Below, piece by piece: positions 16,773 through 23,049 of a DNA stretch of 23,099 nt; position 1 is the first letter of the stretch; every line of letters begins with the position of its first letter. Made by a program: the position numbers and the translations under genes. This DNA comes from a virus: positions 1 through 23,099 of the IMG/VR virus record IMGVR_UViG_3300046820_000447, one strand, 5' to 3'. Below the pieces are notes generated by a model, which made no database searches, had not been told where the DNA came from, and saw nothing but the letters and a program-made list of their open reading frames with translations.

Positions 16773-17056
16773 TTGGAGAACCTTTCAGCGAATCCCTTTT
16801 TAGTCTCAACGCCGGCCGGTGTCGCCTTCTCCTCTGGAGCCTCCAGCATGTTTCGCTCCTCCTGGATCCTCTTGAGGATGTCAAAGGCGTCCATGATGGC
16901 AAGCTTCTTGGTGGCAGCGGCGTTCTTCAGCTTGTCCGCAGACAGGTCCGTGTCCGTGTTGTTGGTCAGAATAGGCTCCTTGGCCACAGAGATGAGCTCA
17001 TGAATAGCCCTCTCTGCCGCCTCGATGATCTTCTCTTTGAATTCTTTCTCCGTCAT
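16769..17056 (-). CDS. Candidate small terminase subunit (95 aa)
   Basis: The protein is short, charged and helical: a first helix (EKEFKEKIIEAAERAIHELI), a linker (PILTNNTDTDLSAD), a second helix (AATKKLAIMDAFDILKRIQE) and a polar tail ending KKGFAERFSK. It has no membrane segment. It lies directly upstream of the large terminase with an ATGA overlap, where the DNA-recognition small subunit is normally encoded. I chose ATG at 17056 over the in-frame ATG at 17068 because it makes an ATGA overlap with the preceding stop, the pattern used by neighbouring genes. The small-subunit call rests mainly on position, size and helical make-up; no clear helix-turn-helix was recognised. Confidence 0.45.
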   Translation of the reverse strand: MTEKEFKEKIIEAAERAIHELISVAKEPILTNNTDTDLSADKLKNAAATKKLAIMDAFDILKRIQEERNMLEAPEEKATPAGVETKKGFAERFSK

Positions 17057-17610
17057 AACGCTACGCATATGTTTTTGCTCAACATCCGGTATAACTTCTC
17101 TCCGTCAACCGTGAACGGGTACTCGCTCTCTGGCTGGAAGCTTATCAAGTCTCCATCGTTGAGGCCCTTTGAGTACAGGTACTCGTTTCCGTACTTAAGG
17201 ACACCAAGCAGTGGCTGTTCCCTCTCTGGGTCGACTAACACCTGGTCCTGTAGGTTGTCTACCGGTTTTACCATGCAGTACGGGTGTGGAGCTTTCCAAT
17301 GTACGTCGTGCCTGTACAGGAAGTACTGCTCGTGGTCAACCAAGAATGTCTTGTCGCGGAAGTGTGACGGTCCGTACACCTCCTTACCACGCATGTCGAA
17401 GTATTTCCGAAATACGTTGTGGTGAACCATCAGTGTGTCACCGGGAACGATCTCCCCGGTGTATCCAATCGGAGTGGCGATGACCTTGGCAAACCTATTG
17501 GTTACCGTGTGGTCCTCCTTTGAGGCGCTCAGTACGAGGCCGTAATCCGTTGTGTTGTCGTAAAGCTTGTCGCCAACAGGCTCTACCACAAAGTAGAGCG
17601 GTGATTTCAT
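17053..17610 (-). CDS. GroES-like (co-chaperonin fold) phage protein (185 aa)
   Basis: The N-terminal two thirds follow the order of a GroES-type barrel. A start strand YFVVEPVGDKLYDN is followed by GLVLSAS, a strand ANRFAKVIATP-like segment (TNRFAKVIATPIGYTGEIVP), then GDTLMVHHNVFRKYFD and a closing DHEQYFLYR. In GroES the matching elements are the first strand, the mobile loop, 'V.VGD.VL' and 'y.il.e.dilA'. The last ~80 residues (from HWKAPHPYCMVKPVDNLQDQ) appear to repeat strand elements. It may help the host chaperonin fold the capsid protein, as T4 gp31 does, or it may simply reuse the fold. It precedes the terminase genes with an ATGA overlap. The fold call is from pattern only and the mobile loop is not confirmed. 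Confidence 0.45.
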   Translation of the reverse strand: MKSPLYFVVEPVGDKLYDNTTDYGLVLSASKEDHTVTNRFAKVIATPIGYTGEIVPGDTLMVHHNVFRKYFDMRGKEVYGPSHFRDKTFLVDHEQYFLYRHDVHWKAPHPYCMVKPVDNLQDQVLVDPEREQPLLGVLKYGNEYLYSKGLNDGDLISFQPESEYPFTVDGEKLYRMLSKNICVAL

Positions 17611-17834: not shown

Positions 17835-18094
17835 AGCGCAATCCAGCCAGTCGACTTGTACTGGTACGTGCCCTCGGTTGCGTCGGTCTGGTAAACCAAC
17901 TGACCCAACACTGGAGACACGATAGCAAGTCTTTGTGCTTGTGTAACTTTAGGAGCACCGGCTCCGAATGTGTATACAGCAACTGCGTCTACAGTTGTGT
18001 TTTTGGTAGACCCACCAGCTGGTGTGTCTGACATTAAAAGCTTTTCAGTACCCACCAAAGCGGTGTCTGTAGCGTAGTTATTAATATTGCCCAT
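17831..18094 (-). CDS. Small structural-type protein (tail-fibre N-terminus-like, 87 aa)
   Basis: The sequence MGNINNYATDTALVGTEKLL, then SDTPAGGSTKNTTVDAVAVY, and the end LGQLVYQTDATEGTYQYKST-GW resemble parts of phage tail or fibre proteins, in which 'G-x-x-V-Y-Q-T-D' followed by an aromatic 'Y.STGW' is common. At 87 residues it may be a short stand-alone module or a virion decoration. It overlaps the coiled-coil gene upstream by 14 bp and the 72-residue gene downstream by 4 bp, so it belongs to the same operon. There is no signal peptide. Confidence 0.55.
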   Translation of the reverse strand: MGNINNYATDTALVGTEKLLMSDTPAGGSTKNTTVDAVAVYTFGAGAPKVTQAQRLAIVSPVLGQLVYQTDATEGTYQYKSTGWIAL

Positions 18095-18329
18095 CTTTTA
18101 TTTCTCCTGTGCTTAAGTCAATAGACACGCTTCCGTACTTTTCGTGCAGCTCAGACTGGAACTTGCCCAACTCTTCAGCTACTATTTCGATCTCAAACAG
18201 AGCGCTCTGTTTTTTTGTTTTCAACCTTGACATAGAAACCTCTATGTCTGCAATGTCCTCTTTCATTGAGCGTACTTTCATGTTCAATGCTTTGAGTTTT
18301 TCTAGTTCGGTAGATTCAAGTATTTTCAT
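18081..18329 (-). CDS. Coiled-coil protein, function unknown (82 aa)
   Basis: Residues ~5-65 are one long amphipathic, charged helix (for example LEKLKALNMKVRSMKEDIAD, then LGKFQSELHEKYG) without proline, so a dimeric coiled coil is likely. The last 17 residues (SVSIDLSTGEIKDGQY) look like a short beta hairpin. The gene overlaps the spanin candidate upstream by 4 bp and the 87-residue gene downstream by 14 bp. No function is recognised; small coiled coils like this can be assembly factors. Confidence 0.55.
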   Translation of the reverse strand: MKILESTELEKLKALNMKVRSMKEDIADIEVSMSRLKTKKQSALFEIEIVAEELGKFQSELHEKYGSVSIDLSTGEIKDGQY

Positions 18330-18736
18330 TTAAGTACAAATCTAATGATAATAATTAACAATAACAAGGTTCCTAGCGCAACTGCTAACGACTTCCAGAA
18401 CGGATCGTTCTTGTAAGTTACCATAGGCGGAAGCTTGAACGGGATCTTTGTAGTAATTCTAACGGTGTCTGACTTGCACTTGGTGTAGACCTTGATTACA
18501 TTGTCCCTTCTGATGACCTGTGTGAAGACAAAGCTATCCTCAAGCGTGATGGTGTCGTAGCATGTAGTAAAAAAGCTGTCGGTAAGTACACGCTCTTTTG
18601 TGACAAACTGGGTGTCATGAACAAGGACAGTGTCACCACCACTCAGCAGCGACGGGTCCTTCTTGATTGCACGCTTTAGATGCCAGCTTGCACTGCACGA
18701 CGTAAGCAATAATATGGCAACAGCGTACTTGAGCAT
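18326..18736 (-). CDS. Predicted unimolecular spanin (u-spanin) lipoprotein, 136 aa
   Basis: The N-terminus MLKYAVAILLLTSC is a lipoprotein signal with lipobox L11-T12-S13-C14. Ser at the next position favours outer-membrane sorting. The middle (about residues 15-112) is a charged, strand-rich periplasmic region with repeated 'DT' motifs (GGDTVLVHDT, CYDTITLEDS, CKSDTVRITTK). The C-terminus has a transmembrane helix at about 115-131 (LAVALGTLLLLIIIIR) and a 5-residue tail. A lipid anchor at one end and a membrane helix at the other is the defining layout of u-spanins such as T1 gp11, which fuse inner and outer membranes in the last step of lysis. It lies two genes after a holin candidate. It overlaps the preceding gene as TAATG. 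The call is by topology, not by sequence identity. Confidence 0.65.
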   Translation of the reverse strand: MLKYAVAILLLTSCSASWHLKRAIKKDPSLLSGGDTVLVHDTQFVTKERVLTDSFFTTCYDTITLEDSFVFTQVIRRDNVIKVYTKCKSDTVRITTKIPFKLPPMVTYKNDPFWKSLAVALGTLLLLIIIIRFVLK

Positions 18737-18876
18737 TACTTTTTCTTTTTCATTTTGGCGAACGCCATCTTTTCTTTGGCTTCTACTTTCTTGCCCTCTT
18801 TCTTTTCGTGCTTCATTTCAGCTTTCTTTGAGGTGTACTTTTCCATTCCACCGTACTCTGATATTTTCTTTTTCAT
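18736..18876 (-). CDS. Lys-rich small protein (46 aa)
   Basis: This is a 46-residue open frame beginning MKKKISEYGGMEKYTSKKAE and ending FAKMKKKK. More than a third of residues are Lys. It is tightly packed: 4 bp after the DUF6321-like stop, and its TAA overlaps the next ATG as TAATG. An AGGAAG lies 8 nt upstream of the ATG, one of the few Shine-Dalgarno-like sites in the window. No fold is recognised; nucleic-acid or membrane contact is a guess based on charge. Confidence 0.55.
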   Translation of the reverse strand: MKKKISEYGGMEKYTSKKAEMKHEKKEGKKVEAKEKMAFAKMKKKK

Positions 18877-18880
18877 AGTT

Positions 18881-19183
18881 TTAACTTCCTTTTATCCATC
18901 TTTTACTTGGAGACGCCGTCTTGCTCGGGCTCCACTTAACCTTGTCGGCCCAGTAAGCGGCAGACATCTTCCCTTTTGAAATATTCTTGGCGTGACGAGA
19001 CTTAAACGCCTCGCGCTGGCCGGCTGTTTGGTTGGTCTTTACTCCCTGCTGCCCAAAGCGGATCGTCTTGATCTTGTCGCCCTCTTTGGCAACAACGATG
19101 TGTGACTTACTGGGATGTCCAGGAGTTTTCTTTGGCTTATTAAAGCCAGCTACTCCCGCCCTCTCAAGCCTGCTGTCCTTCAT
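18881..19183 (-). CDS. DUF6321-like basic protein (100 aa)
   Basis: The product begins MKDSRLERAGVAGFNKPKKT and continues with SHIVVAKEGDKIKTIRFGQQ, then REAFKSRHAKNISKGKMSAAYWADKVKW. I recognise this as the pattern of DUF6321, a small basic domain of unknown role carried by phages and other large DNA viruses. I chose the ATG at 19183 because the domain starts there; the in-frame ATG at 19219 would add 12 poorly conserved residues and a 56-bp overlap with the holin candidate. With 19183 the overlap is 20 bp. The chain has many Lys, Arg and Ser residues and no membrane segment. Function is unknown; a packaged or DNA-bound protein is possible. Confidence 0.65.
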   Translation of the reverse strand: MKDSRLERAGVAGFNKPKKTPGHPSKSHIVVAKEGDKIKTIRFGQQGVKTNQTAGQREAFKSRHAKNISKGKMSAAYWADKVKWSPSKTASPSKRWIKGS

Positions 19184-19400
19184 TTTTATTTGCGAATTTA
19201 TCGATGCTTGTGAATCCAAGGCACGCGATCACCACAAACTCAACCGCAGACACTAGGTCCTTGCTTGGCGCGATATCCTCTGGGCTCAAGCTATTGTGTG
19301 CCATCGTTCCGAAAAGAATTAACGCACCAACGATCCCAACGACGCGCTTGGAAGAGACTTCTCCCTTGTCGCCCTTAAACATTTCTATTAACTTTTTCAT
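19164..19400 (-). CDS. Holin candidate with two membrane helices (78 aa)
   Basis: The 78-residue chain has a charged cytoplasmic-type N-terminus (KKLIEMFKGDKGEVSSKR), a first hydrophobic helix at about 20-34 (VVGIVGALILFGTMA), a polar loop with SLSPEDIAPSKD, a second helix at about 49-66 (LVSAVEFVVIACLGFTSI) and a charged tail. Two helices, short length and charged ends fit a class II holin, which opens the inner membrane at lysis time. The spanin candidate is three genes downstream. A TAnnTTTG element sits 5 nt before the ATG, so it could head its own transcript, useful for timing. No endolysin gene was found in the window, so the lysis role is inferred. Confidence 0.6.
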   Translation of the reverse strand: MKKLIEMFKGDKGEVSSKRVVGIVGALILFGTMAHNSLSPEDIAPSKDLVSAVEFVVIACLGFTSIDKFANKNEGQQA

Positions 19401-22514: not shown

Positions 22515-22660
22515 TATCCTTGTCCCTTGTAGGGCTTACGATAGTTCTTAGAAGTCTTAAGAGAAGAGTTTTTCTTCTTTGACACGACGCCTGGACGCTT
22601 GATGGATGCCTTTGGCTTCCACTTCGCTGCCTCTTTTGTTGATTTTACTTTTGCTGCCAT
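22514..22660 (-). CDS. Small Lys-rich protein (48 aa)
   Basis: This frame encodes MAAKVKSTKEAAKWKPKASI, then KRPGVVSKKKNSSLKTSKNY and a short end. About a third of residues are Lys or Arg. It starts 16 bp inside the 134-residue gene and its TAA overlaps the next ATG as TAATG, so it fits the coupled gene string. No fold is recognised. Confidence 0.5.
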   Translation of the reverse strand: MAAKVKSTKEAAKWKPKASIKRPGVVSKKKNSSLKTSKNYRKPYKGQG

Positions 22661-23049
22661 AGGTACATTCTGAAATAGTCGAACTCTTCTTTTCCGCCTT
22701 CCTCGACGTAGTTGAGATAAGCGTCGTATGCAGGGCCGGTCATTTTAATCTCCTCGATGGCTGTGTCAAGTCCCGAACTAATCATTTTAGCTGCTAACAT
22801 CTCTGACTTTTTCTCAGCAGCTACTACCGCCTCTTTGAGGTCGGCCTTCTCCTGTTGCTTTTGTGCAACAAGTGCTGCACTTTTAGACTGTGCCATCTGT
22901 GTAACCTGCGAGGCCATCTGTAAGTTGCTCTTGATCTTAGCCATCATTACCTCGATTTCGTCGACCGGTGGTGCCGAAATAGCCCCAACAGGAAACGCTA
23001 GCTCTATGGCGAACAAAAACGCAAATAAGGCGATTAGAGCGTACCTCAT
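22645..23049 (-). CDS. Secreted or membrane-anchored coiled-coil protein (134 aa)
   Basis: The N-terminus MRYALIALFAFLFAIELAFP is a clear signal peptide or membrane anchor, with a possible cleavage region after VGAISA (near residue 26). The rest is helical and charged, with an Ala/Gln/Lys-rich coiled coil (ASQVTQMAQSKSAALVAQKQ, then EAVVAAEKKSEMLAAKMISS) and an acidic, aromatic end (YLNYVEEGGKEEFDYFRMYL). A periplasmic location is likely. It starts as an ATGA overlap with the preceding gene. No family is recognised; an internal virion or envelope-interacting protein is conceivable. Confidence 0.55.
   Translation of the reverse strand: MRYALIALFAFLFAIELAFPVGAISAPPVDEIEVMMAKIKSNLQMASQVTQMAQSKSAALVAQKQQEKADLKEAVVAAEKKSEMLAAKMISSGLDTAIEEIKMTGPAYDAYLNYVEEGGKEEFDYFRMYLWQQK

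Follow-up and report, generated by a model that had tools for sequence, protein, structure and literature searches.

The window, by which we mean the whole analysed stretch of 23,099 nucleotides from IMG/VR record IMGVR_UViG_3300046820_000447, carries on its minus strand an open reading frame (18326-18736, stop codon included) for a protein of 136 residues, with a lipoprotein signal at one end and a predicted membrane helix at the other (Table 1). The lipobox is exactly where the first-pass annotation had placed it, L11-T12-S13-C14, and the C-terminal helix that it had seen at about 115-131 is indeed found, with limits lying slightly later: the hydrophobic segment extends over residues 117-135 with a mean of 2.8 (Kyte-Doolittle), and both of our AlphaFold models display a helix at 113-135. 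The exported part contains two cysteines, Cys59 and Cys87, and all four DT dipeptides of the protein (35-36, 41-42, 61-62, 90-91), which had been described as repeated strand motifs. Their excess is modest on this protein alone, shuffled residues giving a mean of 1.28 and reaching at least four in 220 of 10,000 shuffles; the distant family member L148 has six against a shuffled mean of 0.94, a number reached in none of 10,000 shuffles.

A simple rule of our own for this layout, namely a lipobox after a hydrophobic stretch, one C-terminal transmembrane segment and no other, picked the candidate and nothing else among 23 non-overlapping window ORFs of at least 60 aa. Applied to four related records, scanned in pieces with 1 kb overlap, it returned exactly one ORF each, the homologue, out of 87, 75, 77 and 45; extension to all six frames added a single ORF, in G002.

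Table 1. Coordinates of the candidate gene, its neighbours in the window and the inverted-layout proteins of related phages.
Feature	Position	Strand	Evidence or remark
u-spanin candidate gene, 136 aa	18326..18736	-	ORF, homologue alignment, layout scan
Lipoprotein signal peptide, residues 1-14, lipobox LTSC with Cys14	18695..18736	-	lipobox in 41/41 distinct homologues
Predicted periplasmic part, residues 15-112: WHxxRAxKKxP, DT strands, beta strands 60-66, 70-77, 80-87	18401..18694	-	alignments and AlphaFold
Cys87 codon, exported cysteine, nearly invariant	18476..18478	-	homologue alignments
Predicted C-terminal membrane helix, residues 113-135, then Lys136	18332..18400	-	hydropathy and AlphaFold
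82-aa ORF, probably coiled coil, conserved neighbour; starts 4 bp inside the candidate's 3' end	18081..18329	-	sequence and relatives
46-aa Lys-rich ORF overlapping the candidate's start (TAATG)	18736..18876	-	read from sequence; homologue L065:6516-6656
Small basic ORF (K gene), phrog_7595; to 19219 with TTG start	18881..19183	-	between holin-like gene and candidate in many relatives
Holin-like gene, 78 aa, two hydrophobic segments	19164..19400	-	26% identical to L148 holin-like protein (BLASTP E 1e-7)
134-aa protein, signal-like N-terminus	22645..23049	-	homologue directly precedes holin-like gene in some relatives
Inverted-layout proteins	L125:7482-8105, L179:1037-1660, L180:5001-5612, L184:4929-5555		N-terminal TM, DT-rich or coiled span, C-terminal amphipathic beta-like region
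Inverted-layout proteins	L128:3280-3879, L126:10195-10740, L129:19411-20058		N-terminal TM, DT-rich or coiled span, C-terminal amphipathic beta-like region

A two-TM holin-like gene lies 427 bp upstream of the candidate; neither its product nor the corresponding protein of L148 has a holin-family match in Pfam or PHROGs. The 46-aa ORF may be translationally coupled to the candidate gene through the shared TAATG, and the 134-aa protein with the signal-like N-terminus is a possible lysis accessory. The 23,099-base window holds no endolysin gene. Relative G001 has an endolysin candidate (phrog_33083, E 9.7e-8) about 16 kb upstream. The 192-aa protein at L066:3366-3944, matching phrog_33083 (endolysin, E 9.7e-8) and phrog_3000 (function unknown, E 1.7e-31) and nothing in Pfam, is a possible endolysin of the window lineage. 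A long GroES-like protein (phrog_13932) is encoded at 17053-17610 of the window, two genes before the terminase; elsewhere in relatives L066, L068 and L125 there are genes for GroEL-like and short GroES-like proteins.

The terminase of the window matches 93 records of our phage collection, the best being MW202828 with 70%. These comprise phages of Flavobacterium (68), Cellulophaga (15), Tenacibaculum (2) and Maribacter (1), besides six uncultured ones and one Caudoviricetes. Because 86 of the 93 belong to phages of these four Bacteroidota genera, the host is likely a member of the Bacteroidota, in agreement with the first-pass annotation.

Scanning IMG/VR yielded 61 loci with a best-segment identity of 46-98% to the window protein, 59 of them with a visible lipobox and two (L027 and L061) cut before it. 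A second branch (L143-L164) was reached by searching with member L044; hhalign shows homology of the near and distant branches from end to end (probability 99.8, 137 columns), and the window layout is kept in relatives down to 31% identity. Conservation was assessed on the 41 distinct proteins of three alignments, each made of representatives only: A1 (the window and 22 of the 61 loci), A2 (17 of the 22 loci L143-L164) and A3 (27 sequences, both branches mixed, adding L143). All 41 have the lipobox, in which the residue at -1 is small and that at -3 hydrophobic, 40 have the C-terminal TM (L164 falls below the cut-off), mostly followed by a tail with Lys or Arg, and 40 have at least one exported cysteine. 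A borderline hydrophobic segment in the middle of the protein (1.5) is also seen in two homologues (L146 and L153), and four carry an acidic residue between +2 and +5. Family motifs are WHxxRAxKKxP after the lipid cysteine and, in the core of nearly all members, CxxDT.

Pooled over 18 gapless homologues, dN/dS is 0.114 for the whole protein; it falls to 0.083 in residues 15-112 and rises to 0.41 in the TM segment. These ratios are rough because synonymous differences are high (pS about 0.6). Such low values argue for a real gene, the exported part of which is constrained and the anchor of which mainly needs hydrophobicity. The proteins of L028-L041 are 83-87% identical to that of the window over residues 1-106, and from about 107 their C-terminal stretch before the TM differs sharply, so that the anchor region looks as if it had been exchanged.

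No significant named relative of the family was found in PHROGs, Pfam or 50,697 phage records, and tblastn of the window protein, L164 and L148 against those records gave nothing at E<=1. Four tblastn matches of L052, obtained on extending the threshold to E 10 (E 0.1 to 4), were judged to be due to chance; the two that were inspected both lie inside giant crAss-like phage genes. Likewise, none of six pattern matches in bacterial genome contigs is a relative, and the PHROG matches named 'Rz-like spanin' (best E 0.055 and 0.18) were judged chance; in the search giving 0.18, phrog_24125 (unknown function, E 0.0012, the best PHROG value for any family member) and phrog_2943 ('polymerase', 0.0024) ranked above.

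Structure prediction and topology analysis, proposed in the first-pass annotation as a check, gave a predicted beta core and C-terminal helix; neither a fold devoid of an extended periplasmic span nor a helix shown not to cross the membrane came out of them. The model used here, built from A3 with its 27 sequences (mean pLDDT 69.5, pTM 0.31), supersedes an earlier one from 23 sequences (pLDDT 58) and reveals a three-strand core (60-66, 70-77, 80-87) in addition to the helix. In ten-residue blocks, pLDDT is 80-88 over the strands and 77-89 over the helix, below 50 at 37-41 and in most of 99-109, with the rest of the exported part at low confidence as well. By arithmetic and not by prediction, the 98 exported residues at 0.34 nm each would measure about 33 nm at most, enough for the periplasm if extended. 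Among viral models, Foldseek ranked the unnamed A0A516MPR0 (33% identity, E 7.2e-6), a probable relative present in UniProt, before a protein of Polaribacter phage P12002S, A0A0F7IKL3 (E 0.0049, probability 1.00, TM about 0.31), which had been first with the earlier, weaker model (E 0.017); TM-scores to the viral matches are only about 0.3. The PDB gave nothing by sequence (best E 0.46) or by fold (best E 0.73).

The genes around the homologues were counted at 86 loci, 62 of the near branch (window included; L116, which has a holin-like gene upstream, was left out) and 24 distant-branch or bridging ones, counts which do not represent independent events because several loci are near-identical contigs. 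In the near branch, a two-TM holin-like gene lies 261-930 bp upstream at 48 loci and 3.4-3.7 kb downstream at three; ten show none within the available stretch, which for L044 and L052 is about 5 kb on each side, and the cut locus L061 gives no reading. At the distant or bridging loci, it lies upstream in 18 of 24 (within 1 kb in 15) and downstream in L174 (740 bp) and L175 (3,419 bp), and was not found at four; in L175 it overlaps an amidase gene. Seven of these 24 loci carry an M15 peptidase gene, always 60 bp after the spanin gene, the copy of L148 matching PF08291 (E 4.9e-18) and a PHROG endolysin (E 5.6e-36). At six of the seven, the holin-like gene directly precedes the spanin gene with an overlap of 1 to 4 bases; the contig of the seventh, L146, starts 94 bases before the spanin gene. 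A DUF5675 gene (PF18925) is nearby at 13 of the 17 distant or bridging loci without M15. Between the holin-like and the u-spanin gene, L164 has a histidine-kinase-like HATPase (L164:3888-5221; PF02518, E 9.9e-14) and a response-regulator-like ORF.

Taken from sequence and predicted structure, the 136-aa ORF very probably, at roughly 85%, encodes a unimolecular spanin (u-spanin) of a Bacteroidota phage, a lysis protein breaking the outer membrane, as the first-pass annotation had proposed from the single-gene layout. It is the best reading because the layout is complete and conserved, a holin-like gene is linked, and distant homologues occur in cassettes with holin-like and endolysin genes. In the proposed mechanism, Cys14 would become the first residue and receive the lipid once the signal peptide is removed, and this end would sit in the outer membrane, in its inner leaflet. 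Residues 15-112 would bridge the periplasm as an extended chain that includes a small core of three beta strands, and the C-terminal helix would stay in the inner membrane. As long as the peptidoglycan is intact, the spanin molecules would be trapped in its mesh; after holin and endolysin action, they could cluster, collapse and fuse both membranes, and the progeny would be released. The positive-inside rule, the lipoprotein sorting and surface-export signals of Bacteroidota and the action of globomycin served as general background.

This kind of protein is known, also for Bacteroidota phages; the window family is new as a named family and ordinary in mechanism. According to PMC6139136, a u-spanin is one protein with a lipoprotein signal and a C-terminal TMD; the exported domain of the prototype, T1 gp11, is predicted to be mainly beta, and the long coiled coil belongs to i-spanins. 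The window protein shares with T1 gp11 the single gene, the lipobox, the mainly beta exported part and the single C-terminal TM, and the opinion of the first-pass annotation that strand motifs replace a usual coiled coil does not hold, since catalogued u-spanins are mainly beta. T1 gp11 was shown to complement a lambda spanin defect, whereas the function of the window protein is predicted, and the latter gave no tblastn match at E<=1 in the 50,697-record collection, which includes T1. The 2018 catalogue (PMC6139136) lists 58 u-spanins in 13 families, none with an exported cysteine, which is an observation and not a definition; the conserved exported cysteine (Cys87) is thus a specific difference.

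The first-pass annotation also held that few spanins are defined for phages of this host group. This is contradicted by two papers, one stating that Bacteroidetes phages exclusively use unimolecular spanins (PMC12596118), the other annotating them in Cellulophaga phages Ingeline and Nekkels (PMC8776804). Nekkels1_70 of Cellulophaga phage Nekkels_1, which we infer to be the 'potential unimolecular spanin' of PMC8776804, and the P12002S protein A0A0F7IKL3, which shares phrog_30696 with it, come from Bacteroidota phages, too, and resemble the window protein in lipobox, C-terminal TM and one exported cysteine in a CD[ST] context, but show no homology to it beyond the signal peptide (hhalign probability 9). 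The annotated CDS of the P12002S protein (L178:28321-28776) begins too late (VLLNSC...), an upstream ATG at 28324 giving a full lipoprotein signal with lipobox LNSC besides the C-terminal TM; directly upstream lies a gene for an M15-like peptidase (PF13539, E 6.5e-5, narrowly missing the curated cut-off), and we regard the protein as an unannotated u-spanin candidate. Our literature search found no bench test of a Bacteroidota-phage spanin, and the window family, with its lysis-gene context, is a source of a testable one.

One alternative is that the 136-aa protein is the outer-membrane partner in a two-component system together with an i-spanin-like coiled-coil protein of 65-86 aa with an N-terminal TM. 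The gene of the latter is found at 21 of the 86 loci; in part of the near branch, it and a signal-peptide gene come directly before the holin-like gene, the three forming a run. Rz-like spanins of PHROGs match its product weakly (E 0.028 and 0.12), with better scores for an exonuclease and for two PHROGs of unknown function. The gene is present, however, at only one of the 24 distant or bridging loci, at six of which the candidate stands directly between the holin-like gene and the M15 gene, and the 136-aa protein possesses an anchor of its own, which o-spanins do not have. Lambda Rz/Rz1, according to PMC6139136, are two proteins, an N-terminal-TM coiled coil and a lipoprotein, whereas lipobox and TM here reside in one ORF; the presumed end result, fusion of the inner and outer membrane, is the same. 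We consider such a partnership improbable, and keep as a rival the possibility that the spanin of the phage is the product of the 85-aa coiled-coil gene and not the 136-aa protein. The run of coiled-coil and signal-peptide genes is seen at L065:18993-19250 and 18592-18996, at L078:7318-7943 and at 22645-23049 of the window, and possibly encodes lysis regulators or an i-spanin-like pair.

Only a shade less improbable is a phage lipoprotein unrelated to lysis, active for example in superinfection exclusion, whose C-terminal helix would be incidental. The window does lie among late structural genes, and in L042, L043, L051, L057, L058 and L060 the gene is located behind a long gene that we assume to encode the portal (720-765 aa in five of them; 476 aa in L060, where it is cut), away from the holin-like gene where seen; against this stand the TM retained in nearly every homologue and the lysis genes around the distant branch. 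That the protein is no lipoprotein at all, both hydrophobic ends residing in the inner membrane, might be read from the weak score of the Pfam lipobox model (E 0.66), but is highly improbable with a lipobox cysteine, small -1 and hydrophobic -3 residues in every homologue.

The u-spanin layout returned no ORF in five named relatives (0 of 27, 29, 23, 19 and 15 in the examined part of each genome) under our rule, which would overlook an atypical lipobox like the possible one of phi19:3. Four of them have an apparently inverted-layout protein next to or near an endolysin. In MW202828, Phage_holin_4_1 (PF05105, E 6.5e-9) is followed by a 207-aa protein that begins with a TM, carries DT repeats and ends in an amphipathic region, and then by an M15 endolysin (PF08291). 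A further search gave seven loci, of which five were inspected. L180, L182 and L183 present a two-TM gene, a 203-aa homologue of the MW202828 protein and a third gene, weakly NlpC/P60-like in L180 (E 0.0074, under the cut-off), and in L184 a 208-aa homologue is encoded close to an M15 gene (PF13539, E 7.8e-15). Cellulophaga phi38:1 gp084 and Gundel_87 directly follow an endolysin or annotated peptidase gene, and in elemo, gp32 comes three genes after the M15 gene; the grouping of Gundel_87 and elemo gp32 rests on layout, because they are only 18% identical to the MW202828 protein.

Given their position near endolysin genes in relatives without the window u-spanin, these are possible spanins, the C-terminal region of which might insert in the outer membrane. 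A beta-moment test on six of them was mixed, with 5, 36, 32, 45, 8 and 270 of 500 shuffles reaching the value, compared with 86 and 397 for two window-family controls. An odd lipobox is possible as well, because a cysteine stands just after the hydrophobic segment in five of the six. Homology to the window family was tested and not detected. We propose, with considerable doubt, that the spanin slot of this lineage is filled by non-homologous single proteins of opposite orientation: either the window family, with a cysteine that may dimerize covalently, or proteins that start with an inner-membrane helix, continue with a DT-rich span and end in an amphipathic beta region that would insert in the outer membrane. 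If true, the latter would be a spanin architecture that we did not meet in our literature search. In Cellulophaga phage phi19:3, no inverted-layout protein was recognised; two genes after its GH108 endolysin gene, L127:8706-9074 encodes a protein with a hydrophobic start containing SIAC, a likely coiled middle and a C-terminal TM, possibly another u-spanin with an odd lipobox.
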